64,000 nt of DNA from Magnetococcales bacterium (GTDB taxonomy: Bacteria > Pseudomonadota > Magnetococcia > Magnetococcales > Magnetaquicoccaceae), in the NCBI GenBank assembly GCA_015233035.1, contig JADFYM010000001.1, forward strand, positions 1 through 64,000, in the 5' to 3' direction. Of the stretch, positions 45,869 through 62,960 are shown one piece after another. How positions within the stretch are numbered: position 1 is the stretch's first letter; each line of letters opens with the position of its first letter. The position numbers were made by a program, and so were the translations under genes. A model generated the notes under the pieces. That model was given only the letters and a program-made list of their open reading frames with translations. It was not told the origin of the DNA and made no database searches.

Positions 45869-46285
45869 TCATGCTGGATTGCTTGGCCCGCAATCCAGCT
45901 TGTATTCCCGCAGCTTGTCAAACAACACACTTTGACGGACGGGTTTGGTAATATAATCCGTGCAGCGGCCTTTGAAAAATGCCTCCACAACCTGGGACTC
46001 GGTATCCAGAGCGGACACCATGAAGATCACGACCTCCTGGGTATCCGTCACGCCGTGTTCCTGCTCATAGGCTCGAATGCTTTTCAGGGCATCCTGCCCG
46101 TTCATCTCCGGCATCATGATATCCAGCAGCACCAGATCATAGGGCAACCCATCATCCAATGCCACCATGAAGGCCTCCACCGCCTCCCGACCATCCACCG
46201 CCAGATCGCACTCCCCAACCGACTTCAGCATTTGCTGCAACAATATTCTGTTGTGTGGTTCATCGTCCACAATCAGGATGCGCAT
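45869..46285 (-). CDS. Single-domain response regulator (CheY-like)
   Basis: The 138-residue product has only a receiver domain: acidic pocket VDDE, phospho-Asp in LVLLDIMMPEMNG, Ser in MVSALD, and Lys in ITKPVRQS. The C-terminal residues after the last helix are short and carry no DNA-binding output. It is the middle gene of a minus-strand group with the CheZ-like coiled-coil protein upstream and PilZ downstream. It is a likely phosphorylation target for the hybrid kinases nearby and a possible substrate of the upstream CheZ-like protein; both are inferences. Confidence 0.9.
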   Translation of the reverse strand: MRILIVDDEPHNRILLQQMLKSVGECDLAVDGREAVEAFMVALDDGLPYDLVLLDIMMPEMNGQDALKSIRAYEQEHGVTDTQEVVIFMVSALDTESQVVEAFFKGRCTDYITKPVRQSVLFDKLREYKLDCGPSNPA

Positions 46286-46345: not shown

Positions 46346-48055
46346 CTAGAACATTTCAAACCCATCACCATCCTCTTCCACAACCTCCCCGCCCAGCACG
46401 GCCCCATGCGCCTTGCGCTCTCTGGCCATGGTATAGAGACTGGCCAAATCTGAAAACTCCTCAGTCAGACTGGAAAGATCCCCCTCCACGCTACTCAAGA
46501 CCTCGCCACCGACCATTTCCGGCAACAGTTCCTGTACACGATGGATGACATGGTCTGTCCCTTTCTTGATGGGATCGTGAAAATCCATCCCCGCTACCAG
46601 CAGTCTGATCTGGACAATAATGGACTGGGTCTCGCTGATAATTTCGTTGAATATGGTCAACACGTCCCCATGGTCGGCATCCATTTGTTGTGCCCGCAAC
46701 GGCACGCGACGCAGCAAAGTGATCGCCCGCATGATTCTTGGCGTGGATTTTTCCGAATAACTCAACCCGATATCCTGCAACTGGGTGGTTACATCGAGCA
46801 GACGATGATTTTGCACGACCCCTTCGCTTTGGATCCGGGCCATCAACCGACTGATGGTCGTCGTCAGCGTGGCCACCCGTTGATTGTTTTTGCTCTCCAG
46901 AGTGGCCAATAATTTATCCAGACGGTGTGCGGTCAGGATCAACATTTCAAAAGCCCGCTTGGTCTGGAAAAAGGTGTTTTCTGTCTTGGAAAAGTTGCGC
47001 AGCAATTCGATGGAAAAATTGTCGTCAAAGATGCTCAAACGCAACAATGCCCCCAGCAGGTAGGAGAGATCCGCACTGTTCCCGCTAAAAATCATGGCAT
47101 CGTCACGGGTGGCAATCATCCCTTTTTTCCGTTCCCCGGCAATCTCTTCTATGCGTCCCAGGTGCTGGTGTAACGAGAGAACCGCCTCCACCAGATCCTT
47201 GCAGAGATCTTCCAGTTGTTCCATGGCAATACGGGCCGCAATGGCTGCCCAGCGTTTGTCCGCCACTTTCAGTTTGGCAGCACTCAGACGCTGTTCAATC
47301 CGTCCCATGGTGGCGAGCACATGTTCCAGCCTTTGGGCTGTGATGTCATCAAATTGAATGGCCTGCATCATGTCAAAAATAATACGATTGACTTGAGAGG
47401 CCTGACCTTCCAATCCTTCGCAACTGTGACTCATGGTCTGAATCTGGTCGGTCATCTGCTTCATGAGGGCGGTGGAACGGGCCTTGAGCGTGAAAAAATA
47501 GTGCTCGGAGGTCTCCAGATCGGCTGACAAACGACGGGAGGTACTGCCCAGCAACGTGGCGGATTCCTGAGTGGAAAGAATAATCTCTCGAATCAAGGTG
47601 CGAATCTGGGCGACCAGACTGTCCACAATGGTACCCAGCGTCTGCCGTTCCAACTCGGCCCCAACCTGCATCTTGATCTGATCAGCCATGGCGGGCAGCA
47701 AGGCATCCTGTTCCAGATCCAGGGCCCAGGAGGTGATCTGGTGCAACTGTTCTTGAATCGTGGACTGCTGTTCAACCAACTCCGCAATCCCTTGCAGCAC
47801 GGCCTTGGTTTCCTGGTCGATGCGGCGATAATCTTCCTGTAACTGTTTGATGCCCAAATTGTTATCACGCGGAGACAACCGTTCCTGCACCGAGAAGGCC
47901 TGCGTGGCCGCCGAGGCGAAACCGACGGAAAAATTGCCCATTTGTTCGGTCACCTGCGCAAAGCCCGCTTTGCTGACGCCGGACAACTTTTCCAACAGGC
48001 TTTTCAGCTTCTGAAACCGGGCAATGGGGGTTGGGCCAGCATCGGATATCGTCAT
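46346..48055 (-). CDS. Coiled-coil protein with CheZ-like motif
   Basis: The 569-residue product is almost wholly helical and lacks membrane segments. I do not recognise a named family for the full length. Around residues 230-250 the segment IQFDDITAQRLEHV has the spacing of the CheZ active site (FQDLTGQ, catalytic Asp and Gln four apart), giving D237 and Q241. A related segment in the second half (MDFHDPIKKGTDHV) has the Asp but not the Gln, which suggests an internal duplication. The C-terminus is acidic and ends GFEMF, similar in style to the CheY-binding tail of CheZ. Upstream of a CheY-like gene on the same strand, it could dephosphorylate that receiver. The function is an inference. Confidence 0.6.
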   Translation of the reverse strand: MTISDAGPTPIARFQKLKSLLEKLSGVSKAGFAQVTEQMGNFSVGFASAATQAFSVQERLSPRDNNLGIKQLQEDYRRIDQETKAVLQGIAELVEQQSTIQEQLHQITSWALDLEQDALLPAMADQIKMQVGAELERQTLGTIVDSLVAQIRTLIREIILSTQESATLLGSTSRRLSADLETSEHYFFTLKARSTALMKQMTDQIQTMSHSCEGLEGQASQVNRIIFDMMQAIQFDDITAQRLEHVLATMGRIEQRLSAAKLKVADKRWAAIAARIAMEQLEDLCKDLVEAVLSLHQHLGRIEEIAGERKKGMIATRDDAMIFSGNSADLSYLLGALLRLSIFDDNFSIELLRNFSKTENTFFQTKRAFEMLILTAHRLDKLLATLESKNNQRVATLTTTISRLMARIQSEGVVQNHRLLDVTTQLQDIGLSYSEKSTPRIMRAITLLRRVPLRAQQMDADHGDVLTIFNEIISETQSIIVQIRLLVAGMDFHDPIKKGTDHVIHRVQELLPEMVGGEVLSSVEGDLSSLTEEFSDLASLYTMARERKAHGAVLGGEVVEEDGDGFEMF

Positions 48056-48210
48056 GGTGTCTCTCCTCGGTCACTCATTCAATACGGCGTTGCGCAAAAA
48101 GCCTCTCTCTTGTGAGAGACTCTACCGCGTTACCTCGCGCGAGTAAAGCGTGCTCATTCACAATCGGAATCCAACAGGCAAGAAAATGCCTGTTGGGGGG
48201 GCACGCACGA

Positions 48211-48236
48211 CCAGGGCAATCCAACTTTTGCCCTGG
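48211..48236. promoter_or_regulatory. Inverted repeat between divergent genes
   Basis: CCAGGGCAA (48211-48219) and TTGCCCTGG (48228-48236) are perfect arms with an 8-base centre. The site lies in the 281-base region between the CheZ-like gene and the Hsp70-like gene and could be an operator for either. Confidence 0.4.
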
Positions 48237-48336
48237 TGCAATGACAGTTTCCTCTTCTAATCCCCCCTGTGGATGGTGTACACTGGCCGCCTGCCGTTGG
48301 TCGTTTGCTGTGGTCTCTACCGTCGAGGACAAGGAT

Positions 48337-51291
48337 ATGAAAGTACAGAAGGTCTGGGTTCGTCACACACACTTGGCCCAACCCACGCCAGCCCGTACCC
48401 ATGCGGGATTGGAAAACCGACAACGTCTCCTGCGACAGGAAATCCTGGATCTGTTGTTGCGCGACCGTTTTGTCTCTTTTATCAAATATCCCGATATTGT
48501 TTTCGATAATCAGTTAAACTGCCTGTGGTGGCTGCGGGGTTTCCAGGCCCCGGAGAGCGCGGTCTTTGAACAGGTTGCCCGGCTCAAGGTGCATACCTTC
48601 CAGCATTGGGAGGTGCCCACCGCCGAAGAACTGCGCCTCATCCTGCATCAACCATTGATCAAAAAAAATATCGCATTGCAAAATAAAATGGTCTGTTCAT
48701 CCACCCTGGACCACACGCAACACCATTATCAAACGCTCGCCATCGGTCGCGGTCCTCAACACGATTCAACACAAAAAGCGGCCAGCAACGAAGAGGTCGA
48801 TTTGTTGATCATTCCCGTGCATCATATTTCGCAACGGGATATTTTTTCCTTTATCGTCTCCTCGGCCCTGTTTCCCATGGGCATTCCCGCCTTGCAAGAA
48901 AAATTGAGCACCCTCTATCAGTTGACCATGGCCTGCAACAATGAGCGGAAAGAGTTGACCACCCCTTCGCAAGCCGAGTTGAAACGTTATTTTCTGGAAG
49001 GAGATTTTGTCCGCGCCCGTTTGCCTGTTCTGGAAGAAGCCTATTTGCAGGACACCAAGAAAGGTTTGTGGGAGTTATACCAGCCCAGACCGCCCCTGGG
49101 CAAAGATTGGTTGGAAATCCGCCTGCAGGAATCCTGGGAGGCACGCAACCCGGAACGGGATGTGCGCAAAGGGGCCGTGGCCATCGATTTTGGAACCAGT
49201 TCCACCGTGGTGGCCTGTCGCGAACAGGGCAAAACCACCCTGTTGCGGGTCGGCATGGCCGACTTTTTCCGCAAGCCCACCCCGGAAGATTATCAAAATC
49301 CGACCATCATGGAGTGGATCAATCTGCCCAATTTGATGGCCGCCTGGAACGCCGAGGCCTATCGGCCCCTGGTGCGTTGGGATGATTTTCATTTTTCCCA
49401 CGCGGCACTGGCCAGTTATCGGCAAAACGAGGCCGACCAGCGCATTGCCGCCAGCATCCTGACCAATATCAAGCAGGGACCGCTCCTGGACAAAGGCAAC
49501 CAGCCCCCCCCCCGCATCACCGATCAGACCACCGGGGCCGACATCGAACTGTGTGCCACCGCATCGCAAATGCCCGTCCACGGACAGCGCATTTCGGTCT
49601 CCAACAGCGACCCTCTGGATCCGATCGAACTGTACGCCTACTACCTGGGCCTGTTTATCAACAACCGTTCCAGCGGCCTGTTTCTGGAATATTATATGAC
49701 ATTTCCGGTCACTTATCCCAAAAAGGTCAAACGGCGTATCCTGACCTCCTTTGCCCGTGGCCTGATGCGCAGTCTGCCCCTTTCCTTGATGGACAGTCCC
49801 GTCATTCAGATGTTTTCCGTGCGGGAAGAGGCCTCCGAACCCACCGCCTATGCCGCCTGTGCCCTGGCAGAACTGGGGATCCAGCCCACGGCAACCGGAA
49901 CGGCCTTTGCCGTGTTTGACTTTGGGGGGGGCAGCACCGATTTTGACTTCGGTCTCTACCGGTTGCCCACAGCCAAGGAGGGCGAACGGGGGTATGAACA
50001 GGTCATCGAACATTTTGGTGCCAGCGGTGATATGTACCTGGGCGGAGAAAATCTGGTCCACCATATCGCCTTCCTGACCTTTATCCACAATCTGGATGTG
50101 TGCCGGAAGTTGCAGGTTTCCTTTACCTCTCCCCCGGAAGCGGAAAGCTTTCCCGGTCATGAACTCTTCATCGACCGTTCCCATACCGCCCAGACCAATA
50201 CCACCCTGTTGATGGCCAAGGTACGCCATCTGTGGGAAAATTTTCAGTGGCCCACCGCCAGCGAATCGGCCAACGGCCAAAAGATCGGTCGTCGCCGGGA
50301 ATCGGATCTCATCGGCGATGTGCTGCATCACGCCATCATCGACACCGACTTCACCCTGGACCACGCCATTCCCTGTTTCGCCGAAGCGGACAATCGGCTC
50401 CCCATCACGCTGGAATTGTTAAACCGCAAACGGGAAAAGGTGTCCGCCCAGTTGGTCGTTGACCGGAACGCCATCAACCAGTTTTTGGTCAAAAGAGTCG
50501 GCAAGGGCATTTATCCCTTTTTCATCGCCATGCACCAAGCCTTTGCCCGTCGAGGGGCCTTGCCGAAAGAGATCCATATCCTCCAGGCAGGCAACGCCAG
50601 TCGGGCACTGCTGGTACAGGCACTCTACGCCATGCTGTTGCAACAAAACATGTTTCGTTGGACACCGCCCACCGAGGGGACCAAGGCGAACCCGGTCATG
50701 GAAGAGATCCGCAACTCTCTGCCTCTGTTTGATCCCTCGGCCCGGGTCCAGTTTATCGTGCATCGACCGCCAGCCGGTGATCCCAATGATCCCTACCGGC
50801 CCACGGCCAAGACCGGTGTCGCCATTGGTCTGCTCAAGTTGATCCCCGGCGAGACATTGCTGGCTCTCCATACCACCAGCAGACACCGCCCCACGGAGAA
50901 GGGCAAACCGGGAAGCTCTGCTCCCATCGTCGAAAGTCTCCAGGAGTCGCCCTTCCATCTGTATGTGGGCCGCCTGAAAAAAGGATGTTTCCAGCCGGTA
51001 TTGCTGCAAAATGATCCCTATGGGGAATGGCGTGAACTCGGAACGCCCACCCGGCGGGCCTTCACCCTGGTCTTTTCCACCTCTCCCCGGTCTGTCTTTG
51101 GCGCACTGCCACGCGGTACCCCGGAATTGCGCGAGAAAACCCTGACCTTTCGCATGGGCCTGGAGCGGAAACAGTTGTTCATCCAGGCGGTGGCACCGAC
51201 TTCTGTAGAAATATGCCTGGCCGACTCCCTGGAACAGCTCCTCCAGCGACCCGAAGAAGCACTCGCACGACAGGTGATGGATCTGACCTGA
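48337..51291 (+). CDS. Large Hsp70/actin-fold ATPase, function unknown
   Basis: The 984-residue product carries the ATP-binding signatures of the Hsp70/actin/sugar kinase fold. Phosphate 1 is AIDFGTSSTVVA (about 282-293), phosphate 2 FDFGGGSTDFDFG (about 526-538), and an adenosine-type motif LQAGNASRALL lies near 748. The first 275 residues and the C-terminal 200 are not Hsp70-like and unknown to me. It is longer than DnaK (about 640) and lacks the substrate-binding domain pattern. The ATG at 48337 follows GAGGACAAGG; the frame is open upstream but without a good start. It stands alone between a CheZ-like gene and the chemotaxis cluster and converges with the next gene two bases away. A chaperone, filament or assembly role cannot be decided. 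Confidence 0.75.
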   Translation: MKVQKVWVRHTHLAQPTPARTHAGLENRQRLLRQEILDLLLRDRFVSFIKYPDIVFDNQLNCLWWLRGFQAPESAVFEQVARLKVHTFQHWEVPTAEELRLILHQPLIKKNIALQNKMVCSSTLDHTQHHYQTLAIGRGPQHDSTQKAASNEEVDLLIIPVHHISQRDIFSFIVSSALFPMGIPALQEKLSTLYQLTMACNNERKELTTPSQAELKRYFLEGDFVRARLPVLEEAYLQDTKKGLWELYQPRPPLGKDWLEIRLQESWEARNPERDVRKGAVAIDFGTSSTVVACREQGKTTLLRVGMADFFRKPTPEDYQNPTIMEWINLPNLMAAWNAEAYRPLVRWDDFHFSHAALASYRQNEADQRIAASILTNIKQGPLLDKGNQPPPRITDQTTGADIELCATASQMPVHGQRISVSNSDPLDPIELYAYYLGLFINNRSSGLFLEYYMTFPVTYPKKVKRRILTSFARGLMRSLPLSLMDSPVIQMFSVREEASEPTAYAACALAELGIQPTATGTAFAVFDFGGGSTDFDFGLYRLPTAKEGERGYEQVIEHFGASGDMYLGGENLVHHIAFLTFIHNLDVCRKLQVSFTSPPEAESFPGHELFIDRSHTAQTNTTLLMAKVRHLWENFQWPTASESANGQKIGRRRESDLIGDVLHHAIIDTDFTLDHAIPCFAEADNRLPITLELLNRKREKVSAQLVVDRNAINQFLVKRVGKGIYPFFIAMHQAFARRGALPKEIHILQAGNASRALLVQALYAMLLQQNMFRWTPPTEGTKANPVMEEIRNSLPLFDPSARVQFIVHRPPAGDPNDPYRPTAKTGVAIGLLKLIPGETLLALHTTSRHRPTEKGKPGSSAPIVESLQESPFHLYVGRLKKGCFQPVLLQNDPYGEWRELGTPTRRAFTLVFSTSPRSVFGALPRGTPELREKTLTFRMGLERKQLFIQAVAPTSVEICLADSLEQLLQRPEEALARQVMDLT

Positions 51292-51293
51292 TA

Positions 51294-53423
51294 CTATCTT
51301 TTATCCTCTTTCCCGGAGCCATCGGCTTTTTTCTTGCCCTTTTTCGGTTTGTCTGGCCTGTCCAGCTTGATCTGGTCGGGGTCGCGGACGACATGCTCGC
51401 GAACCAGGGTGGCGGTCGGCAATAAATCTTTGAATATGGACTGAAAATCACGGACAACATTCTTGGGAGCCGGGGCCACGGTGGGCCTCCCTTCCATAAT
51501 GTCGTCCACTTGCACGATAACCGGCTCTGTCTCCTCCGGCGCAGCCAATGCTGCTGCCTCGGCTACCGCATCCGGCACAACCTCGACAACATGCTCCGCC
51601 GCTGCCACCGGGGTTTTTATCATAACCAGTTCGGCGGCCTCCTCCAGAACCCGTTCCACCTCCTCTGTCACCACATCTGGCACATCTGGCACATCTGCCT
51701 CAACAGCCCGCTCTTCCGCTGCCACCGGGGTTTTTATCATAACCAGTTCGGCGGCCTCCTCCAGAACCAATTCTATCCCCTCTGCCACCACATCTGCCAC
51801 AACCGCCTCGACAGCAAGCTCCGCCGCCAGCACAATCGGTTCGGCGGCCTCTTCCAGAACCAGTTCCATCCCCTCATCCACCACATCTGGCACAACGGCA
51901 ATAGCCAGTTCTGCCTCTGCCACAGCGGTTTTTATCATAACCGGTTCAGCGGTCTCCTCCAGAATCAGTTCTATCCCCTCATCCACCGTATCTGGCACAA
52001 CGGCAACAGCCAGTTCTGCCGCTGCCGCAGGGGGGAGGATCATGACCGGTTCGGCGGTCTCCTCCAGAATCAGCTCTATCCCCTCATCCACCGTATCTGG
52101 CACAACAACAAGTTCTTCCGCTACTTCCGTGCTTGCCAGCACAATCGGTTCGGCCACCAACGCTGCAGCCTCAGCGTCCGGCACAACAGCCGCAGACGCC
52201 TCCTCCTCTGCTGCTATGCTTGCCAGCACAATCGGCTCAGCCACCTCCGCCTCGGGCGCAGCGTCTGGTACAACGGCAGCAGACGCCTCCTCCTCCTCCT
52301 CTGCTGCCAGGCCTGCCAGCACAATCGGCTCAGCCACCTCCGCCTCGGGCGCAGCGTCTGGTACAACGGCAGCAGACGCCTCCTCCTCTGCTGCCAGGCC
52401 TGCCAGCACAACCGGCTCAGCCACCTCCGCCTCGGGCGCAGCGTCTGGTACAACGGCAGCAGACAACTCCTCCTCCTCTGCTGCCAAGCTCGCTGGCACA
52501 ACCGGTTCGACCGCCAGCACCTCGTCCGCAGCGTCTGGTGCAACGACCGCAGACGGCTCCTCCTCCGCTGTCGTGCCTGCCAGCAGTATCACATCGGGCA
52601 AAATCCCGGTAACCATCGTCTCCTCGGCCGCAACAGTTTCCTCCACAGCCGATTCGATGATTTCTGCCACATCCCACAAACCCCAGACCGATCCCTCACC
52701 CGTATCCTCTTGTAACACCTCGGTGGCAGTCACAGGATCTCCTGCGGCGGGCTCCACCACAGCCACCGGCGATTCCTCCGCCAAGACCTGTGGCACCCTC
52801 GCCGGGACAGCATCAGACAACACCGGTACGGCACTCTTGTTGACCACCCCCACCGGTTTAACCCCTGGTTCCCGTTGGTCCGCAAAGGCACTCGGCATCG
52901 GGGGCAAGACCACCCGTTTGGTCTCAGCGGGTTTGTTTTTGCCCACATCCTGCGGGTGTGCATACAACAACGAATCCACATCCAGAATAAGCAACGTGGT
53001 CGCGTTATACTTGCCAACCCCCTGCAAACAGGCACGCTTCATCCCGGACGGTGGCGGCTCATTAATGTTACTTTCATCCAGCTCAACCACTTCATGCACC
53101 GAATCCACGACCACGCCAATCCAGGTCGCCACATCGTCGCGCTCTCCTTCCGCACGATACGAACCATCCAGGATCACAATACGGGATTGAACGGTGGGTT
53201 CCACCCGTTCCATACCCAACTTTTGTCGCAGGTCACTGACCGGAATGACATAGCCCCGCAAGTTGATCACCCCCCACAGATCCGCACTGGTACGGGGCAC
53301 GGGGGTAATCTTGGTGGCACGTGACTCGGTGTTCGTATCGGTCAACAGCTCGATAACCTCCCGGACCAAGACCAGATCCACGGCATACAGATCCGCATCC
53401 AATTGCAAAGTCAAGACCTTCAT
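51294..53423 (-). CDS. CheW-domain protein with long repetitive acidic tail
   Basis: The 709-residue product starts with a CheW domain (about 1-165) with VREVIELL, WGVINLRGYVIPV and LLILDVDSLL. The remainder is low-complexity. One type of about 30 residues (AAVVPDAAPEAEVAEP) is repeated about five times. Another type (VVPDTVDEGIELILEE) is repeated six to seven times, sometimes followed by VMIKTPVAA. The last 25 residues are Lys-rich (KPKKGKKK). The ATG at 53423 begins the CheW domain directly (MKVLTLQL); a GTG seven codons earlier is less likely. A normal CheW is about 160 residues. The tail could be an extended linker that holds the coupling protein to something else in the array or at the pole. 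Confidence 0.85.
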   Translation of the reverse strand: MKVLTLQLDADLYAVDLVLVREVIELLTDTNTESRATKITPVPRTSADLWGVINLRGYVIPVSDLRQKLGMERVEPTVQSRIVILDGSYRAEGERDDVATWIGVVVDSVHEVVELDESNINEPPPSGMKRACLQGVGKYNATTLLILDVDSLLYAHPQDVGKNKPAETKRVVLPPMPSAFADQREPGVKPVGVVNKSAVPVLSDAVPARVPQVLAEESPVAVVEPAAGDPVTATEVLQEDTGEGSVWGLWDVAEIIESAVEETVAAEETMVTGILPDVILLAGTTAEEEPSAVVAPDAADEVLAVEPVVPASLAAEEEELSAAVVPDAAPEAEVAEPVVLAGLAAEEEASAAVVPDAAPEAEVAEPIVLAGLAAEEEEEASAAVVPDAAPEAEVAEPIVLASIAAEEEASAAVVPDAEAAALVAEPIVLASTEVAEELVVVPDTVDEGIELILEETAEPVMILPPAAAAELAVAVVPDTVDEGIELILEETAEPVMIKTAVAEAELAIAVVPDVVDEGMELVLEEAAEPIVLAAELAVEAVVADVVAEGIELVLEEAAELVMIKTPVAAEERAVEADVPDVPDVVTEEVERVLEEAAELVMIKTPVAAAEHVVEVVPDAVAEAAALAAPEETEPVIVQVDDIMEGRPTVAPAPKNVVRDFQSIFKDLLPTATLVREHVVRDPDQIKLDRPDKPKKGKKKADGSGKEDKR

Positions 53424-53636
53424 AGGGCACCCCCCGGCAGACACAAAAGTACAATGCTTGGCAATACCATACGATCAACCACCGTTCACATCTCCTTTGA
53501 CAAAAGTGCAGGATGGCAAAAAAGCCACTTTACCAACGTATCCACGAAAAAGCATGGCAAAAAAAAACAGTGTATGGCATTATGGCCCGACAGGTAGGGG
53601 TGTGGTGGTTAAAATTTTTGAACAGGGGAACTCAAA

Positions 53637-54581
53637 ATGGCAAATGAATCCGTACTGGATGAGGTGTTTCAACGGTCCAACCTTGCATACAGCAACGAGA
53701 TGGAAATGTTGACCTTCTATCTGACTGACGATCAACTGTATGGGATCAATGTCTTCAAAATCATAGAAATCATGGAATGCCCGAAGGTGGTCACCAAAAC
53801 GCCCCACTCTCATCCCGTGGTCAAAGGCAACATTGACTTTCGCGGCCATCCCATCTCACTGTTCGATCTGGCCGATGGCCTGGGCTTGACGCCCATCGAT
53901 TATCGCAACACCCTCAGCTACATTCTGGTCTGTGAATACAGCAACACCATCCAGGGCTTTCTGGTCTCTCGCCCCAATATGCTCATTAATAAAAGCTGGA
54001 GCGACATTATCAAGCCGGAAGGCACCCTGTACGACCAGAGCTACCTGACTGCCATCGCCTACCACAACTCTGTTTCCATCCAAATTCTGGATGTCGAAAA
54101 ACTGTTGGTCGAAATTATCGGTATGGATACCTCCGTCTCAGAGGAGTTGATCCAGCAGAGCAAGAACTTGTCCGCCGATCAACACCAGGTACTGCTGGTG
54201 GACGACTCCAAGGCCGCCTGCAGCATGTTGGGAGCCGCCCTGAATCAGATGAACATCGCGCACACCATCCTGAACAGTGCTCAGGAGGCTCTGAACCTGT
54301 TGAACAAAACCCTGAAGGAGAATAATGGCAAATGCCCGTATTCCCTTATCTTTACCGATCTGGAAATGCCCGGCATGGACGGTTTCACCTTTACCCGCAA
54401 GATACGGGAAATCGCGGCCCTCGCCAATGTGCGCCTGGTGGTCCACAGTTCGTTGAGCAACAAGTCCAACTGGGAAAAGGCACAGGAAATGGGTGCAGAC
54501 GACTTTATTCCCAAGTTTTCCCCAGACCGCTTTGCCGAAACCATCTTGAAGCAGTTGGAGAGATCTACGCTGCCGCGCTAG
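53637..54581 (+). CDS. cheV: CheV coupling protein (CheW-receiver)
   Basis: The 314-residue product has a CheW domain (about 15-165, with YGINVFKIIEIMECP, VVKGNIDFRGHPISLFDL and ISIQILDVEKLL-like strands). A receiver follows (about 180-305) with LLVDDS, phospho-Asp in LIFTDLEMPGMDGF and a Lys near IPKF. CheV links receptors to CheA and can take phosphate as a sink or for adaptation. The start at 53637 follows GGGGAA. It diverges from the tailed CheW gene and converges with an MCP-like gene nine bases away. Confidence 0.93.
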   Translation: MANESVLDEVFQRSNLAYSNEMEMLTFYLTDDQLYGINVFKIIEIMECPKVVTKTPHSHPVVKGNIDFRGHPISLFDLADGLGLTPIDYRNTLSYILVCEYSNTIQGFLVSRPNMLINKSWSDIIKPEGTLYDQSYLTAIAYHNSVSIQILDVEKLLVEIIGMDTSVSEELIQQSKNLSADQHQVLLVDDSKAACSMLGAALNQMNIAHTILNSAQEALNLLNKTLKENNGKCPYSLIFTDLEMPGMDGFTFTRKIREIAALANVRLVVHSSLSNKSNWEKAQEMGADDFIPKFSPDRFAETILKQLERSTLPR

Positions 54582-54590
54582 GGCCTGGCA

Positions 54591-55604
54591 CTAAAACAGC
54601 TCGATATCCCCTTCGTCCATGCTCTCCTGCATCACCGGCTTGTGACTGACGGAGTTGAGCAATTGCCGCTGTTCCTGGAGCCGTTGCTGGGTGCGCACAA
54701 CACGCTCCTTTCTGGGTATTGTGTCATCCAGGAACAAATCCAGGTCGAAGATGTGGTCAAATTTTTCTACCACCGAGGTCTTTTTATCGATCCCTTGGGT
54801 GATTTGAGTGACCATGTCCTCAAACTGAAGCGAAAGGACGGCCAGACCGATATTGTTGTGGATCTCTTTGGTGATCCCGGACACCTGTTGCAGCATTCTG
54901 GTCGTGAGCCGGTCATTCTCGCTGATCTGGGCCATCATGGCGTCCACTTTGTTTTTGGATTCCATGGAAAAGCTCATATCTTTGGAGGCCATCTCCTTGA
55001 CCACCTCTTTGGCGGTATCGACCTGATTGCTGGTCTCTACCACCACATCGCTGATCAAGTCACTGACTTCGCGGGAAGCGATGGCCAACCGGCGCACCTC
55101 CGCCGCCACAACGGAAAAGGCCCCACTGGCCTGCCCTTCCCGTGCCGCCACAATACGCGCATTCAGGCCGAGCACTTTGGTCAAGTCGGCGATGGCGTTG
55201 ATCTTGCCCAGAGACTCTTCCACCTGCAGCATTTCCGCAGAAACATCATCGATACGATACATCATCGCCATGCTCTGCTGACTGACCGCCACAATATGTT
55301 CCACGAAGGCTTGCAGAATGGCATCGGTCGCCGTGGTAAACTCACCAATGGTGATATGGCTCTTTTTGTCCGCTTTCTGGCTGCCGCCCTGTTTTTCCAT
55401 ACTGGCCACCACACCGGCCACCAGTTCGCTCTGTTGCCCGGTCTGTTGCCGTAGCAGGTTGAACCGTTCGCTCAGCTTGCCCACCGCCTCCTGCACCATC
55501 TGACGGACCTGCGCACCATCCGCACGCAGGCTCGCCAACTCCCGGCGGAGTTCGTCGCGTATGCCCTGAGAAATTTTTACTGCATCCAGCTTATCTTTTG
55601 CCAT
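54591..55604 (-). CDS. Soluble MCP-like protein with CheZ-like motif
   Basis: The 337-residue product has no membrane segment. Residues about 130-210 match the receptor signalling hairpin, with a tip at LGLNARIVAAREGQASGAF and VVAAEVRRLA. Both arms are much shorter than in receptors. After the hairpin, LQFEDMVTQITQ places D263 and Q267 exactly as in the CheZ catalytic motif. The C-terminus is acidic and ends DIELF. It is the last gene of a minus-strand group with a paralogue (33 bases upstream) and CheW. It may sit in the array through the hairpin and act on CheY-P. Alternatively it is only a small cytoplasmic receptor. Confidence 0.75.
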   Translation of the reverse strand: MAKDKLDAVKISQGIRDELRRELASLRADGAQVRQMVQEAVGKLSERFNLLRQQTGQQSELVAGVVASMEKQGGSQKADKKSHITIGEFTTATDAILQAFVEHIVAVSQQSMAMMYRIDDVSAEMLQVEESLGKINAIADLTKVLGLNARIVAAREGQASGAFSVVAAEVRRLAIASREVSDLISDVVVETSNQVDTAKEVVKEMASKDMSFSMESKNKVDAMMAQISENDRLTTRMLQQVSGITKEIHNNIGLAVLSLQFEDMVTQITQGIDKKTSVVEKFDHIFDLDLFLDDTIPRKERVVRTQQRLQEQRQLLNSVSHKPVMQESMDEGDIELF

Positions 55605-55637
55605 TTGCTCACCACACCAAACACTGTGCTGCGTGCC

Positions 55638-56603
55638 TTAAGCCGCATCAAACGCCTGTCGCTGCTGCAACAAATTGTTTTGCAACCTGGCCAACCGCTC
55701 TTTTTGAGAAAGGGAATCGTTCATCAACATGTCCAAATCCACCACCCGGGCAAACCGTTCCAACACCGCCAATTTGCGCTCGATCCGCTTGAGTACCAGC
55801 GTGACGGTCTCTTCAAACTGCAAGAGAGAAACCGCAACGTCCACATTGCCACCAATCTCCTCGGTAATACCAGACACCTGGCGGAGGGTCCGGGCCCGGA
55901 AGGAGTTGATCTCACTGATATCCGTCATCATGGCATTCACCTGGCCTTTGGCATTCATGGCAAAGCCCATATCCTTGGAGGCCATCTCTTTGACAATATC
56001 CCGCACCGAACGAATATTGGCACTGGTCTCTTCTACCGCCAAACTGATCTGGTCGCTCACCTGACGGGAAGAAGAGGCCAACTGGTGTATCTCCGTTGCC
56101 ACAAATGTGAAGGCCTCCCCGGACCGTCCGGCCCGCGCCGCCACAATACGGGCATTGAGGGCGAGACCCTTGGTCAGTTCGACCACCGTGTTAATCTTGC
56201 CGAGATGTTCCTGCACCCGCAACATGTAGGCCGCCACATCATCCATACGATAGACCATCCGCATGCTTTCCTGGCTGATTTGCGAGATCCGATCCACAAA
56301 AGTGCGCAAAATCTCATCCGTGGCCTGCACAAACTCTTGGATATTGACCGAATCTGCCTGGCCTTTTTTCGGCTCAACCACCTGTTCATGCCCAATAGAC
56401 TGTTCGTCCAGGTCGGCAGCCAGGCCAATCACCAAATCCTGCTGCTCTTCCGCCTGTTGCCGCAAACCGTTAAAGCTGTTGTCCAGTTTGACCACAGAAT
56501 CACGGACCAGAGAGCGGATCTGCCCGCCCACGGTACGCAAATCCTCCAGTTGCTTGCCAAACTCAACCTGGACTTCCCGATTCAGTAAAGTTGCATCGTT
56601 CAC
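55638..56603 (-). CDS. Soluble MCP-like protein (paralogue without CheZ-like residues)
   Basis: The 321-residue product is built like the protein at 54591: a hairpin tip LALNARIVAARAGRSGEAF, then VSGITEEIGGN and LLQFEETVTLVL. In the last piece the CheZ-like Asp and Gln are Glu265 and Leu269, and the C-terminus ends FDAA without the acidic ELF tail. It starts with GTG at 56603. It lies between cheW (63 bases upstream) and its paralogue. The pair could form heterodimers or one could be a structural partner; this is inferred from position and similarity. Confidence 0.75.
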   Translation of the reverse strand: MNDATLLNREVQVEFGKQLEDLRTVGGQIRSLVRDSVVKLDNSFNGLRQQAEEQQDLVIGLAADLDEQSIGHEQVVEPKKGQADSVNIQEFVQATDEILRTFVDRISQISQESMRMVYRMDDVAAYMLRVQEHLGKINTVVELTKGLALNARIVAARAGRSGEAFTFVATEIHQLASSSRQVSDQISLAVEETSANIRSVRDIVKEMASKDMGFAMNAKGQVNAMMTDISEINSFRARTLRQVSGITEEIGGNVDVAVSLLQFEETVTLVLKRIERKLAVLERFARVVDLDMLMNDSLSQKERLARLQNNLLQQRQAFDAA

Positions 56604-57462: not shown

Positions 57463-57801
57463 ATGATTGATTTTTCTCTGGATGACTCCGGTGCCAGTGG
57501 CACGCTGCTGCTGTCGGGTGCGTTGACCATCCAGCAGGCATTGCCATTGAAAGAGACCCTCTTGCGTGCCGTTGGAGAGGTCAATCAACTGAAGATCAAC
57601 CTGGAACACGTTGAGGGTATGGATCTGACCGCCCTGCAACTGCTTTGTGCCGCCCACCGGGATTGGATCAAAAACGGTAAAAAGGTAACCCGTGAGGGGG
57701 CCATACCGGAGATCGTGCACCGAATTGTCCGGGAGTCCGGCTTTTCCGGCTGTGTGGGTGATGATGATGACATCGGACTTTGGACGGGAGCAAGCAATTA
57801 A
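57463..57801 (+). CDS. STAS domain protein
   Basis: The 112-residue STAS domain protein (anti-sigma antagonist fold) has the conserved loop as MDLTALQLL, where a Thr stands at the usual phosphorylated Ser position. The ATG at 57463 is five bases after GGAG; the GTG two codons earlier is less likely. Its stop overlaps the cheY start by one base (TAATG), so the two are coupled. STAS genes before cheY/cheA occur in several proteobacterial chemotaxis operons; the exact role there is not settled. Confidence 0.88.
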   Translation: MIDFSLDDSGASGTLLLSGALTIQQALPLKETLLRAVGEVNQLKINLEHVEGMDLTALQLLCAAHRDWIKNGKKVTREGAIPEIVHRIVRESGFSGCVGDDDDIGLWTGASN

Positions 57802-58166
57802 TGGCTAAAACAATCATGACCGTAGATGACTCCTCCAGCGTCAGGCAGATGGTTGGCTTGACACTGAAAGGAGAAGGATACCAAGTGGTGGAGGCGGTGG
57901 ATGGCAAGGATGCCCTCACGAAGGTGGGGGGGGCGACCATTGATATGGTCATTACAGATCTGAACATGCCCAACATGGATGGCATCACCTTGATCCGGGA
58001 ATTGCGCAAATTACCGGCTTTCAAGTTTGTGCCGATTATCATGCTGACGACCGAATCCCAGGCCGATCGCAAGCAAGAGGGCAAGGATGCCGGTGCAACC
58101 GGGTGGATTGTCAAACCGTTCAAGCCAGAACAACTGATCGGTGTCATCAAGAAAGTGCTCGGCTAA
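57801..58166 (+). CDS. cheY: CheY response regulator
   Basis: This 121-residue receiver has the acidic pocket VDDS, phospho-Asp D53 in MVITDLNMPNMDG, Thr in MLTTES and Lys in GWIVKPFKPEQL. CheY-P binds the flagellar switch and sets rotation. It is coupled to the STAS gene upstream and followed by cheA after 35 bases. The start is fixed by the one-base overlap and GGGAG upstream. Confidence 0.95.
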   Translation: MAKTIMTVDDSSSVRQMVGLTLKGEGYQVVEAVDGKDALTKVGGATIDMVITDLNMPNMDGITLIRELRKLPAFKFVPIIMLTTESQADRKQEGKDAGATGWIVKPFKPEQLIGVIKKVLG

Positions 58167-58201
58167 GCCATCCCAGACCTCATCGAACGGAGATCCAAGC
58201 C

Positions 58202-60307
58202 ATGGCTGTAGAGATTGATACCAGTGCCTTCACCGAAGAGGCCTACGAGTTGCTCTCTGAATTGGAGGACTCGCTGCTGGAACTGGAAGAGACCCCGACC
58301 GATATGGAGTTGATCGGTCGGGTCTTCCGGGCCATGCACACCATCAAAGGGTCCGGAGCCATGTTTGGCTTCGACGAGGTGGCCAAGTTTACCCACGAAG
58401 TGGAAACAGTTTTTGACAAGGCGCGTTCCGGGACTTTGCCGGTCACCAAGGCGTTGATCGATCTGACCCTGGCGGCCCGGGATCAGATTCGCACCATTCT
58501 GGACGCCTCCCGGGGGGGACCGCCCGCCGACCAGGACAATGCCAACCGCATTATTGCCGGGCTGCGTGGACTGACCCCCCAGAAAGAGTCCGCCGCCGCA
58601 CCGGTCGCCGTCCAGGCGGTTGCCCCGGTTGTCCCGGAGGGACCGCACGTCTATCGCGTCCGTTTTGAACCCAGGCCGGAAATTTTTTCATCCGGGACCA
58701 ACCCCTTGTTGTTGATCAACGAAATGAGGGATCTGGGGCATTGCCGCGTCATTGCCATCACAAATGCCTTTCCCTCTCTGGAAGAGTTGGATCCAGAACG
58801 GTGCTATACCTCCTGGGAAATTTTTCTGACTACCACGGAGGGAGAAAATGCTATCCGGGATATTTTTATCTTTGTGGAAGATGATTGTACCCTGAATATT
58901 CGCCTCCTGGATCGGGAGGAAGAGCCGGATGAAATGGCGCAGCCCAAAAAATTGGGTGAAATTCTGGTTGAACGGGGTGATATCAGCGCGGAAGCCCTGG
59001 ACAAGGCTTTGACGCCACTGGGCGACCGGTTGGTCACCTCTGGTGTGGTCCCCGCCGACAAGGTACGTGCGGCACTGACCGAGCAACGGGTTGTACAAGA
59101 GCAACGCCAACAACAGGGCAAGGCCGCAGAAGTGGATGCTGTGGTCCGCGTCCCCTCCACCAAACTGGACAAACTGGTCAATCTGGTGGGCGAAATGGTG
59201 ACGGTGCAGGCGCGGCTGAACCAGATTGCCACCCAGTTCAGCAATCAACATTTGCAACTGGTTGCCGAAGAGATTGAGCACCTCACTGCCGAACTGCGCG
59301 ACAACACCATGAGCATCCGCATGTTGGCCATCGGCTCCACTTTTAACAAATTCAAGCGTCTGGTCCGGGATCTTTCCACAGAGTTGGGCAAACAGATCGA
59401 ACTGACCACCTCTGGGGCCGACACAGAACTGGACAAGACCGTCATCGATCAGTTGAATGATCCGCTGGTTCACATTATTCGCAACAGCATTGACCATGGT
59501 ATCGAAAAACCGGATGTGCGACAAGCCACCGGCAAACCTTTGGTCGGGCAGATTCATTTGTCTGCCGTTCATTCCGGGACCAGCGTTTTGATTCAGGTCA
59601 GAGACGACGGCAAGGGTCTCGACCCGCAACTGCTGCGGCGCAAAGCAGTGGAAAAGGGTGTTTTGTCGCCGGATGCGGTATTGTCCGACCACGAGGCTTA
59701 CCAGTTGATTTTTGCTGCCGGTTTCTCTACTGCCGAAAAGATCACCAATGTCTCCGGGCGTGGCGTGGGCATGGATGTGGTACGCAAATCCATTGAAGGG
59801 CTGCGCGGCTCCATCGACACCCAAAGCGAACTGGGCAAAGGGACGAGCATTACCCTCAAACTGCCCCTGACACTGGCCATTATCGAAGGGTTGCTCGTCA
59901 GCGTCAATCAAAACTATTTTGTTGTTCCCCTGGCGGCCGTGGAAGAGTGTGTGGAACTGGCCCCCAAAGATATTGCCAACTCGCATGGTCGGCGCATCGT
60001 CAATGTGCGCGGTGAAATTGTCCCCTTTATCCGTATTCGCGAACGGTTTGACATGTCCGGCGAGCGGCCCACCATCGAACAGATTGTCATTGCCAATGTC
60101 GATGGCAAGCGGGTTGGCTTCGGGGTGGACTCGGTCGTCGGGCAACATCAGACGGTCATCAAAAATCTGGGTAACAGCTTTGAATACTCGGACGAATTTT
60201 CCGGTGCCACCATCCTGGGCGACGGAACGGTCGCGCTGCTCCTGGACTTGGCCAGAATGGTGCGTTATGTCGAGATACAAGAGTCCAAAGAGACGGGAGG
60301 ATCTTGA
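58202..60307 (+). CDS. cheA: CheA chemotaxis histidine kinase
   Basis: The product has 701 residues. The P1/HPt domain has phospho-His H46 in MHTIKGSGAMFGF. A middle part (about 150-240) has RVRFEPRPEIF and a mixed alpha/beta pattern. Then come two copies of a short motif (KLGEILVERGDIS and a weaker second) at about 255-300, found in some other CheA proteins. The dimerisation helices start near 315 (STKLDKLVNLVGEM). The ATP-binding domain has HIIRNSIDHGIE, DDGKGLD and GRGVGMDVV. The C-terminal CheW-like P5 domain lies at about 563-690. The ATG at 58202 follows GGAG. cheB follows after three bases. Confidence 0.96.
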   Translation: MAVEIDTSAFTEEAYELLSELEDSLLELEETPTDMELIGRVFRAMHTIKGSGAMFGFDEVAKFTHEVETVFDKARSGTLPVTKALIDLTLAARDQIRTILDASRGGPPADQDNANRIIAGLRGLTPQKESAAAPVAVQAVAPVVPEGPHVYRVRFEPRPEIFSSGTNPLLLINEMRDLGHCRVIAITNAFPSLEELDPERCYTSWEIFLTTTEGENAIRDIFIFVEDDCTLNIRLLDREEEPDEMAQPKKLGEILVERGDISAEALDKALTPLGDRLVTSGVVPADKVRAALTEQRVVQEQRQQQGKAAEVDAVVRVPSTKLDKLVNLVGEMVTVQARLNQIATQFSNQHLQLVAEEIEHLTAELRDNTMSIRMLAIGSTFNKFKRLVRDLSTELGKQIELTTSGADTELDKTVIDQLNDPLVHIIRNSIDHGIEKPDVRQATGKPLVGQIHLSAVHSGTSVLIQVRDDGKGLDPQLLRRKAVEKGVLSPDAVLSDHEAYQLIFAAGFSTAEKITNVSGRGVGMDVVRKSIEGLRGSIDTQSELGKGTSITLKLPLTLAIIEGLLVSVNQNYFVVPLAAVEECVELAPKDIANSHGRRIVNVRGEIVPFIRIRERFDMSGERPTIEQIVIANVDGKRVGFGVDSVVGQHQTVIKNLGNSFEYSDEFSGATILGDGTVALLLDLARMVRYVEIQESKETGGS

Positions 60308-60310
60308 ACG

Positions 60311-61483
60311 GTGGCGAAAATTCGCGTCCTGATCATTGATGATTCCGCCGTGGTACGTCAAACACTGACCCAGATTCTGGAATCAGATGAAGACATTGAG
60401 GTGGTGGGATCGGCTCAGGATCCTTTTGTGGCGGCGGAAAAACTGCGGACCACCGTACCGGATGTGATCACTCTGGATGTGGAAATGCCCCGCATGGATG
60501 GCATCACCTTTCTGCGCAAGATTATGACGCAGCATCCCATCCCTGTGGTCATGTGTTCTTCGCTGACTGAAGAGGGCTCGGCCACGGCTTTGAAGGCGTT
60601 GGAGTATGGTGCGGTGGATATTATCACCAAACCCAGAATGGGCACCAAAACCTTTCTGGAAGAGTCGCGCATCCGCATTTGTGATGCCGTCAAGGCGGCC
60701 GCTCTGGCCCGGATGCCGCGATTTGCGTTGCGTCCGGTCGAAAGGGCACGTCCCACCGAAGAAGCCCGTCCGGTCGAAAAGAGCTACACGACTGAAGAAG
60801 GCCCCACGACCAACCGGTTTGTTGCCGCCACCCAGGCGGGCTACAAAGTGCCACCCAAGTTGACGGCGGATGCCATGCTGCCCCCACCCGATGCCCGTGC
60901 CATGATTCAGACCACGGAAAAGGTGGTCATCGTGGGGGCTTCGACGGGCGGTACGGAGGCACTGCGCATCTTTCTGGAGGCACTGCCAGCGGACGCGCCG
61001 GGCATGGTCATTGTGCAGCATATGCCGGAAAATTTTACCACGGCCTTTGCCAACCGTCTCAACACCTTGTGCCAGGTGACCGTCAAGGAGGCCGCCCATG
61101 ATGATTCGGTCGTGCGGGGTCGGGTCTTGATTGCACCAGGCAACAAACACACCCTCCTCAAAAGAAGCGGTGCCCGTTATATGGTCGAAGTCAAAGAGGG
61201 ACCGCTGGTCAGTCGCCATCGGCCTTCCGTGGATGTTTTGTTCCGTTCTGCCGCCCGGTATGCCGGGAAAAATGCCGTGGGCGTCATTATGACCGGCATG
61301 GGCGATGACGGGGCGCGGGGCATGTTGGAGATGAAACAGGCGGGTGCCACCACGATTGCCCAGGACGAACAAAGTTGCGTCGTCTTCGGGATGCCGAAAG
61401 AGGCGATCAAGCACGGCGGGGTGGATATTGTCAAGCCGCTGGACAAGATTGCAGCGGAAGTGATTCGGTTGTGCGGGGGGTGA
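60311..61483 (+). CDS. cheB: CheB methylesterase/deamidase
   Basis: The 390-residue product has an N-terminal receiver (D56 in [11 protein letters not shown]), then a Pro/Arg-rich linker of about 60 residues. The methylesterase domain has the catalytic triad S211 (GASTGG), H237 (QHMPENFT) and D332 (MGDDGARG). It removes receptor methyl groups in adaptation. The start is GTG at 60311, with GGGAGG upstream overlapping the end of cheA. The C-terminal codons and stop lie inside a 16-bp inverted repeat. Confidence 0.96.
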
Positions 61484-61554: not shown

Positions 61555-62031
61555 CTACTGTCCCGACTGGGACCGCTTCATCAGGATGGAGCCATCCTGG
61601 GTGTTGAAAATCACCTTCCGGCTCACCTCTCCCCCCATATCCGAGGCGATGATCGGGATTTGTGCCTGCGCCAAAAATTCGTGGGCGACCTCAATATTGC
61701 GTTGCCCCACATTGAGAAAACCGGAAGAACTTTGCAGGACGGCCCCCCCCCCGAACACCTTGGCCTTGAGTTCTCTTTTGGAGCACCCCATTTCCAGCAT
61801 GTGTTCGATCAGTTTGACAATGGCAATATTGCCAAACTTGGGCGATGGCAAACCATCCCCATTCCAGAGGGGCAACTTGTAATGGTTCATCCCCCCCTTG
61901 CGCAAACGCGGATCCCAAAGGCAAACGGCAATACAGGAACCCAAAACCGTGGTGATGACATAATCCCCATCCTTGGCAAATAATGCGCCGGGCAATAGGA
62001 AAGGCTTGCTGGTCTCTGGTTCATTCACCAT
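61555..62031 (-). CDS. cheD: CheD receptor glutamine deamidase
   Basis: The 158-residue CheD has its catalytic Cys in TTVLGSCIAVCLWD and its His in GGMNHYKLP, with the family's Thr before the Cys. CheD deamidates Gln residues of receptors and in some bacteria is controlled by CheC or CheY-P. The ATG lies two bases after the stop of the upstream kinase-like gene, so they form one transcript. The family's usual partner CheC is not in the window. Confidence 0.95.
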   Translation of the reverse strand: MVNEPETSKPFLLPGALFAKDGDYVITTVLGSCIAVCLWDPRLRKGGMNHYKLPLWNGDGLPSPKFGNIAIVKLIEHMLEMGCSKRELKAKVFGGGAVLQSSSGFLNVGQRNIEVAHEFLAQAQIPIIASDMGGEVSRKVIFNTQDGSILMKRSQSGQ

Positions 62032-62033
62032 GG

Positions 62034-62960
62034 CTAAAACAACTCGGTCTGATCATCGCTAAAGAAAAACTCATTACCATCCACAGAGAACGTGTCGGCC
62101 TCGGCATCGGTTTCCACAAACGGAATGGAGAGCGTCACCGTACACCCCTCCCCCGGTTTGGCGTTGACCAATACCGTACCCTCCATCATGTCAACCACCG
62201 CCTTGGTGATACTCAAACCCAACCCATGCCCCTTGTGCGACTTGCGAATGCCGGTTTCCAATTGGGCAAAACGGTCAAAAATACGCCCCAACTGATCGGT
62301 ATCCAGACCCACACCCGTGTCCGTTACCGAAAGCACTAGGCGATCATCGACCACACTGATATCCAGATCAATGCGTCCACCCGGATTGTTGAATTCAATG
62401 GCATTGGAGAGCAGGTTTTGCACGACCAATTCCAGTTTTTCTGAATCGGACTGGAACAGCAACCGCTCACCCTCCTGCACCACCGGCGCAGAACCGAGCA
62501 CCAGCTTTTTGCCCAGAAAATAGACATCCAACCCCTTCGCCCGGATCAGATGGGCAAAATCGTTGACAGCATGGATCAGCAAGGCATGTCCATCCACCGT
62601 GGCGGATTGCAGCATGGTCGCCCCATCCTCCAACTCCGCAGCGGCAAAAATATTGCGCAACTGAAAGTCCAGACTGAACGCCTCCGCAAAGATGGAACTG
62701 GCAATCTCAATCGTCGTGGCCCGGTCCGCATCATGGGACAACAACTGCTGCGTCAAGCCCAAAATACAGGAGAGTGGATTATTGATCTCATTTTTCATAT
62801 GAGAAACAAAATTGCTTTTCACCTGCTCCGAAATTTGCAGCTTCCGGTTGACCTCTTCCAGTCTTCTGCTGACAATTTTCAGATCATACAAAGTTTGTTT
62901 TGTATGAAAAAATCTTGTTTTCAACTCATTGAGCAAATCATCGTCACTCAGATCAGCCAC
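62034..62960 (-). CDS. Histidine-kinase-like protein lacking the phospho-His
   Basis: The 308-residue soluble protein has an N-terminal coiled coil (about 1-45). Its dimerisation helix reads FVSHMKNEINNPLSCILG. Aligned with the usual FLANMSHEIRTPL, Asn57 stands at the phospho-His position and Asn also replaces the Arg. The ATP-binding domain is intact: N box NLLSNAIEFNN, DTGVGL and GHGLGLSI. The last residues are acidic and end DQTELF, like the tails of the CheZ-like proteins nearby. It is coupled to cheD. It may bind ATP without normal autophosphorylation and act as a scaffold or phosphatase. An alternative is use of H54, three residues earlier. Confidence 0.8.
   Translation of the reverse strand: MADLSDDDLLNELKTRFFHTKQTLYDLKIVSRRLEEVNRKLQISEQVKSNFVSHMKNEINNPLSCILGLTQQLLSHDADRATTIEIASSIFAEAFSLDFQLRNIFAAAELEDGATMLQSATVDGHALLIHAVNDFAHLIRAKGLDVYFLGKKLVLGSAPVVQEGERLLFQSDSEKLELVVQNLLSNAIEFNNPGGRIDLDISVVDDRLVLSVTDTGVGLDTDQLGRIFDRFAQLETGIRKSHKGHGLGLSITKAVVDMMEGTVLVNAKPGEGCTVTLSIPFVETDAEADTFSVDGNEFFFSDDQTELF

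Follow-up and report, generated by a model that had tools for sequence, protein, structure and literature searches.

Two helical proteins with a CheZ-like Asp/Gln helix and a docking-type tail encoded near a chemotaxis cluster of a Magnetococcales bacterium

We analysed a stretch of 64,000 nucleotides (hereafter the window; positions 1 to 64,000 of contig JADFYM010000001.1, assembly GCA_015233035.1) from a Magnetococcales bacterium whose draft genome spans 4.5 Mb over 434 contigs and is 97% complete. The enzyme CheZ turns off the signals by which bacteria steer, and this report concerns three proteins of the window, designated P1, P2 and P3, that were compared with it. The three open reading frames (ORFs), their motifs and their tails lie where a preliminary description of the window had placed them, with both features carried by P1 and P2 and neither by P3:

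46346..48055 (-): P1, a helical protein of 569 residues with a CheZ-like N-terminal half (about residues 60–290), an unrelated C-terminal half and a tail resembling a CheY-docking peptide
47333..47356 (-): P1 motif QFDDITAQ, residues 234–241, with D237 and Q241 aligned with the catalytic D and Q of CheZ
46349..46372 (-): P1 C-terminal tail DGDGFEMF, residues 562–569
54591..55604 (-): P2, a soluble protein of 337 residues that resembles methyl-accepting chemotaxis proteins (MCPs) of the McpA-like family, with an MCP hairpin and motif helix, a linker and a tail
54804..54827 (-): P2 motif QFEDMVTQ, residues 260–267, containing D263 and Q267
54594..54623 (-): P2 C-terminal tail SMDEGDIELF, residues 328–337, disordered in the structure model
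55638..56603 (-): P3, 321 residues, a tandem duplicate of P2 confined to the genus, in which the D/Q pair and tail are lost

P1 is distributed across the order Magnetococcales, with strong-scoring matches in 34 genomes. A Pfam scan identified no domain in this protein, and the preliminary grouping of P1 with the MCP-like coiled-coil proteins did not hold, as P1 is not MCP-like. All 30 P1 orthologues examined carry Q[FYVM]DDIxxQR around D237/Q241 and end in [IF]E[LM]F; the linker preceding the tail varies among them, with motif and tail kept. Most P1 genes are located outside che clusters and retain both features nonetheless. In profile comparison, the C-terminal half of P1 showed no similarity to its N-terminal half, to CheZ or to P2. 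An internal tandem duplication of P1, considered for a second MDFHD element at residue 490, was rejected because this element is not conserved and the two halves are unlike.

Both P2 and P3 match the Pfam MCPsignal family with E-values (E) of about 1e-13 (1.3e-13 for P2). P2 of the window has no hydrophobic N-terminus, opens with a helix (residues 8–73) and has no predicted transmembrane region. The model of P2, built with 36 sequences (mean predicted local distance difference test score, pLDDT, of 76.5), is composed of two long helices, a short helix spanning residues 298–319 and a disordered tail; D263 and Q267 are located within helix 86–289. P2 is also order-wide, and its orthologues in the order all contain QFEDMVTQ or QFEDMVSQ and a tail of the ...MDEG[DEG][IV]ELF type. 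The family as a whole has hundreds of members in Gammaproteobacteria, Magnetococcales and other groups: homologues outside the order are common (485 confirmed matches in the named collection, 80 of them kept), and the P2 profile matches 101 of 399 genomes of the phylum, part of these matches being weak. Across 149 P2 loci, QFxDxxxQ is present throughout, with D and Q invariant, and the tail [IV][ED][LF]F is present in all except L139, which ends in AEVF, and L251, which has none. A DNA pattern for the P2-type tail occurs once in the entire 4.5 Mb genome, at P2.

P3 reads QFEETVTL at residues 262–269 and ends in QAFDAA. Neither the D/Q pair nor the tail is present in any of five P3 sequences, and both were thus lost jointly within the genus; one of the five retains Q with E in place of D. 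The P3 frame of genome G006 (G006:C23:16809-17762) contains an internal stop, TAA, which suggests that P3 is decaying. In another genome (G001:C52:77341-79299), P3 and P2 form a single open frame of 674 residues.

The preliminary description had proposed that motif and tail are gained or lost together, and this coupling is near-perfect over about 190 proteins of several architectures. Among 160 distinct ORFs matching the P2 profile, 154 have both features, five have neither (all P3 copies) and one has the motif only. Because the P2 profile itself includes both features, we searched again using the N-terminal region of P2, which contains neither motif nor tail, and obtained 150 ORFs with both, five with neither and one with the motif only; over the 399 genomes of the phylum, this search recovered essentially the same proteins as that with the C-terminal region, plus two marginal matches. 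In the same loci, 48 ordinary MCPs included none with the tail and one with a chance match to the motif, and 42 of them ended in a CheR-type pentapeptide. A further 34 ORFs contained both patterns: 28 are P1 proteins, four are copies of a 188-residue tubeworm-symbiont protein and two are CheD proteins in which the motif match looks like chance; two more P1 proteins outside the 34 were missed only by the strictness of the patterns. An abundance of homologues with a single feature had been named as the observation that would speak against a common function; such homologues number one of 160 in the P2 family and none among P1. The pair is also kept by P2 in lineages where no CheZ match was identified, namely the order Magnetococcales and family f18. 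The tubeworm-symbiont protein (L138:1767-2330, also in L143, L146 and L163) lies between a parA-type gene and cheR, contains FQFYDKLSQR and ends in DDIELF, representing an additional protein type with both features.

We analysed the relationship to CheZ by one-to-one profile comparisons, with reversed profiles and ordinary MCPs as controls. The N-terminal half of P1 matched CheZ with E 6.9e-7 (reversed control 0.19) and alphaproteobacterial CheZ alone with E 3.3e-7, whereas ordinary MCPs matched CheZ with E 0.009–0.024. The motif regions of P1 and P2 matched each other with E 6.3e-7. By this profile evidence the N-terminal half of P1 is detectably homologous to CheZ, and P1 links the P2 and CheZ families because it is similar to both. 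P1 also shows a match to the NCBIfam CheZ model (NF041271) over residues 198–293 (17.3 bits against a cut-off of 350, E 0.0025), and the weak matches to Pfam CheZ (PF04344) in genomes G044 and G047 fall on P1 orthologues.

Six members of the P2 family, of 148–194 residues (L246, L249, L250 and L255–L257), wholly lack the MCP tip. These are clear relatives of P2 (profile E 1.3e-22) for which the curated libraries gave no CheZ match; in direct comparison they matched CheZ with E 7.5e-5 (reversed 0.013–0.031). In all six cases cheY is the next gene downstream, and in five it is followed by cheA. Two other P2 homologues (L101 and L103) have also lost the receptor tip and kept motif and tail. Since tip-less members retain both features and P1 is not MCP-like, the MCP hairpin is dispensable, and the conserved unit of the P2 family, as judged from these alignments, is the helix with its tail and not the MCP tip. 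The direct link between P2 and CheZ is suggestive only.

Several elements are shared with CheZ. D and Q lie four residues apart in a helix, in register with the catalytic D and Q of CheZ in the alignments of P1 and the tip-less proteins; AxxF/Y precedes them in P1 and part of the P2 family; the helical hairpin region is profile-aligned with P1 and the tip-less members; and a linker with an acidic-hydrophobic C-terminal peptide, a putative CheY-binding element, is present in P1 and P2, the gene lying beside cheY in the tip-less members. Two signatures, DXXXQ and AXX[FY]Q, have been published for CheZ (PMC7750401). Pseudomonas-type P2 proteins (L237–L240) read ALQFQDMxxQ and so fit both, as AXXFQ-DXXXQ, whereas AIQFDD of P1 and SLQFED of the window P2 match AXX[FY]Q only partially ahead of the catalytic D, Q at the position before this residue being replaced by D or E in most members. 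Unlike CheZ, P1 has 569 residues with an unrelated C-terminal half, P2 has an MCP signalling hairpin as its scaffold, and their tail follows xxIELF rather than the DDLLxSLGF of CheZ. The tails of alphaproteobacterial CheZ, for example DDIDALFD, resemble those of P1 and P2.

The acidic-aromatic tail had been likened to the CheY-binding end of CheZ; it also ends most CheD proteins whose genes adjoin those of the P2 family, 54 of 69 in P2 operons exactly and most others with one to three extra residues. Because of these CheD proteins, the tail is better described, on sequence grounds, as a docking peptide than as a mark of catalysis. Tailed CheD proteins ending in [DE][IV][DE]LF are found at L100:3490-4146, at L101:7235-7894 and in most CheD genes of L109–L236. 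CheY would be the best candidate partner of the tail, given its resemblance to the CheZ tail, the adjacency of the tip-less genes to cheY and an arrangement in genome G014 (L029), where P1 is directly followed by a CheY orthologue 80% identical to the CheY of the window (57780); CheB is a possible partner. A function as a CheR pentapeptide was rejected: the tail has no aromatic residue at position two and neighbouring receptors bear a true WExF end. None of 160 P2-family members has the x-[HFYW]-x2-[HFYW] pentapeptide.

From synteny, the tail and the published description, P2 probably belongs with the “McpA-like” receptors (PA0180/CttP, VCA1088/Mlp44, SO_2117). Gene orders include receptor, cheR, cheD, cheB, P2 and STAS at L100, and P2, cheY, cheA, cheW and an aer2-like receptor at L237; both orders match those of published F7 clusters, where the position of P2 is occupied by an McpA-like receptor (PMC7184735). 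The P2 family shares with these receptors an MCP-like sequence, a place beside cheR-cheD-cheB or cheY-cheA-cheW-aer2 and a highly conserved C-terminus without the CheR pentapeptide; a transmembrane region, absent from the window P2, is predicted for the published receptors. McpA-like receptors are always linked to F7 clusters, are dispensable for the F7 array and are deemed puzzling, their C-terminus showing “striking conservation” with an “unclear biological role” (PMC7184735). The McpA end has valine at pentapeptide position two and is reported to bind none of the four CheR proteins of P. aeruginosa (PMC7184735), and the EVELF ends of the P2 family agree with this valine. Ancestral (stage 1–2) F7 clusters have their own cheY and no cheZ (PMC7184735). 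In the open-licence literature we found no phosphatase role for McpA-like proteins.

Based on these comparisons, we propose, with a probability of roughly 0.6, that P1 and P2 are CheZ-type phosphatases of phosphorylated CheY (CheY-P) tethered by a docking tail, a role that we favour for P1 over P2. A single long helix in each would carry the Asp and, four positions further on, the Gln (D237 and Q241 of P1, D263 and Q267 of P2). By the mechanism known from CheZ, Gln would orient the water that attacks, with Asp in contact with the active-site Lys/Mg of the receiver. Like the C-terminus of CheZ, the tail on its flexible linker would capture the receiver and keep it concentrated nearby. We infer the dimeric bundle, the identity of the substrate and catalysis. 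The MCP hairpin of P2 would position this protein within the receptor array or close to it, and P1 would represent a separate, non-receptor version. The idea that such phosphatases sit in receptor arrays by an MCP hairpin thus survives in part: an MCP-like protein in the array fits, because SO_2117 of S. oneidensis, a homologue of McpA, clusters at the pole with CheA3 (PMC9855816), but P1 is not MCP-like and the tip is not required. A possible parallel is CheT of Sinorhizobium meliloti (cited in PMC12654446): it contains DXXXQ, its sequence places it outside the CheZ family, its fold is predicted to resemble that of CheZ, and it is reported to dephosphorylate CheY. No MCP hairpin is described for CheT.

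Several observations weigh against this interpretation. No protein scored above any curated CheZ cut-off, and P1 and P2 are therefore not placed inside the CheZ family. The C-terminal region of P2 matched CheZ marginally (E 1e-3, reversed 0.007), and a fold search with the P2 model returned only MCPs and generic coiled coils, its closest solved structures being chemoreceptors. The single-sequence model of P1 was uninformative (pLDDT 41), leaving no usable P1 model. The tail is borne by CheD, a protein without the D/Q helix. Many genomes with P2 also encode CheZ. Deletion of the McpA-like receptor of S. oneidensis left swimming unchanged (PMC9855816). Finally, almost every genome of the order encodes CheX, often in the same che cluster as P2, as in the relatives L097, L098, L099 and L106.

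The phosphatases of the CheC/CheX/FliY group also dephosphorylate CheY, as proposed here for P1 and P2, and differ from the CheZ type in motif and fold. In a domain scan, none of P1, P2 and P3 matched CheC or CheX. The absence of cheZ, cheC and cheX stated earlier is correct for the window and not for the genome, which encodes three CheX-family proteins; Pfam CheZ is absent from the genome, and no match above the cut-off was found in any genome of the order. With three CheX proteins in the genome, a missing phosphatase fails as an argument for the role of P1 and P2. The CheX examples include G000:C71 (L001) and G000:C415 (L002); one protein has an N-terminal PilZ domain and one is encoded directly after cheY.

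These observations bear on the alternatives. P1 and P2 might be a receiver-binding scaffold or sink, tail and helix binding CheY or another receiver to localise or buffer it without catalysis, and the tail is indeed the most rigid feature and common to CheD, a non-phosphatase, with CheX supplying catalysis elsewhere in the genome. We consider this unlikely, as binding hardly accounts for D and Q that are invariant in 149 of 149 P2 members, and where the tail is lost, in P3, D has become E and Q is mostly gone. An adaptation role, which we judge slightly less likely still, would have the tail recruit, or be recruited by, CheB, CheR or CheD, P2 being a normal receptor that has an unusual tether and the QFxDxxxQ helix being structural. 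The gene order mcp-cheR-cheD-cheB-P2 and the CheD with the same tail are in accordance with this role, as is the behaviour of S. oneidensis McpA as a receptor-like part of the Che3 array, overproduction of which led to more swimming, as with other MCPs (PMC9855816). It does not explain why the P. aeruginosa McpA tail is reported to bind no CheR (PMC7184735), why the tip-less genes adjoin cheY and cheA with no tailed CheD in the stretch covered, or why P1, mostly remote from che clusters, keeps both features. A chance resemblance among coiled-coil proteins is conceivable for such short elements and for helices of low complexity, but is very improbable and already disfavoured: motif and tail are conserved jointly over about 190 proteins and four architectures, no ordinary MCP has the pair, and the CheZ similarity is far beyond the reversed and MCP controls.

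The neighbourhood of P1–P3 contains genes for CheW, CheV-like, STAS, CheY, CheA, CheB and CheD proteins, among them:

45869..46285 (-): a stand-alone receiver domain protein encoded on the P1 strand, 60 bp downstream
57780..58166 (+): CheY, the likely (predicted) substrate
58196..60307 (+): CheA of the same cluster
60311..61483 (+): CheB of the same cluster
61555..62031 (-): CheD, without the tail borne by CheD in gammaproteobacterial P2 operons

The receiver is kept next to P1 in three of four other loci of the genus. An MCP at 42745–45111, which weakly matches a zinc-binding (CZB) domain and carries bacteriohemerythrin at its C-terminus, may be an oxygen-sensing receptor. The 1,086-residue protein at 48031–51291, opposite P1, shows only weak matches to HscA/DnaK-type ATPases (E 0.002) and no Pfam family; further genomes of the genus also carry it next to P1. 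At 51294–53444 a CheW-domain protein bears a repetitive acidic extension of about 500 residues rich in Ala, Glu and Val. The histidine kinase beside cheD (62034–62960) ends in DDQTELF in the genus. This end is not clearly the element found in P1 and P2, being confined to the genus, as orthologues in the order are acidic and mostly end in xEAF or similar.

We tentatively extend the proposal of CheZ-type phosphatases, in a form that we hold to be possible and somewhat doubtful: P1, the McpA-like receptors, the tip-less proteins of 150–190 residues and the 188-residue tubeworm-symbiont type may together make up an extensive group of CheZ-like phosphatases that has gone unrecognised and supply the missing termination enzyme of F7 systems. 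CheD would share the docking peptide, and CheY-P would couple termination to adaptation, like CheC-CheD-CheY-P in Bacillus.

For this widespread receptor-like family of puzzling role, a putative CheZ-type active site together with the tail makes the question of function testable. If the interpretation of P1 and P2 as phosphatases is correct, a receptor-like protein would be a phosphatase, which would answer both the conservation of the McpA C-terminus and the presence of cheY without cheZ in F7 clusters, and a receptor-shaped protein could remove the signal at the site where it is produced. Tallies of species “without a CheY phosphatase” would then be too high. If the tail of CheD also binds CheY, one docking site would serve both termination and adaptation.

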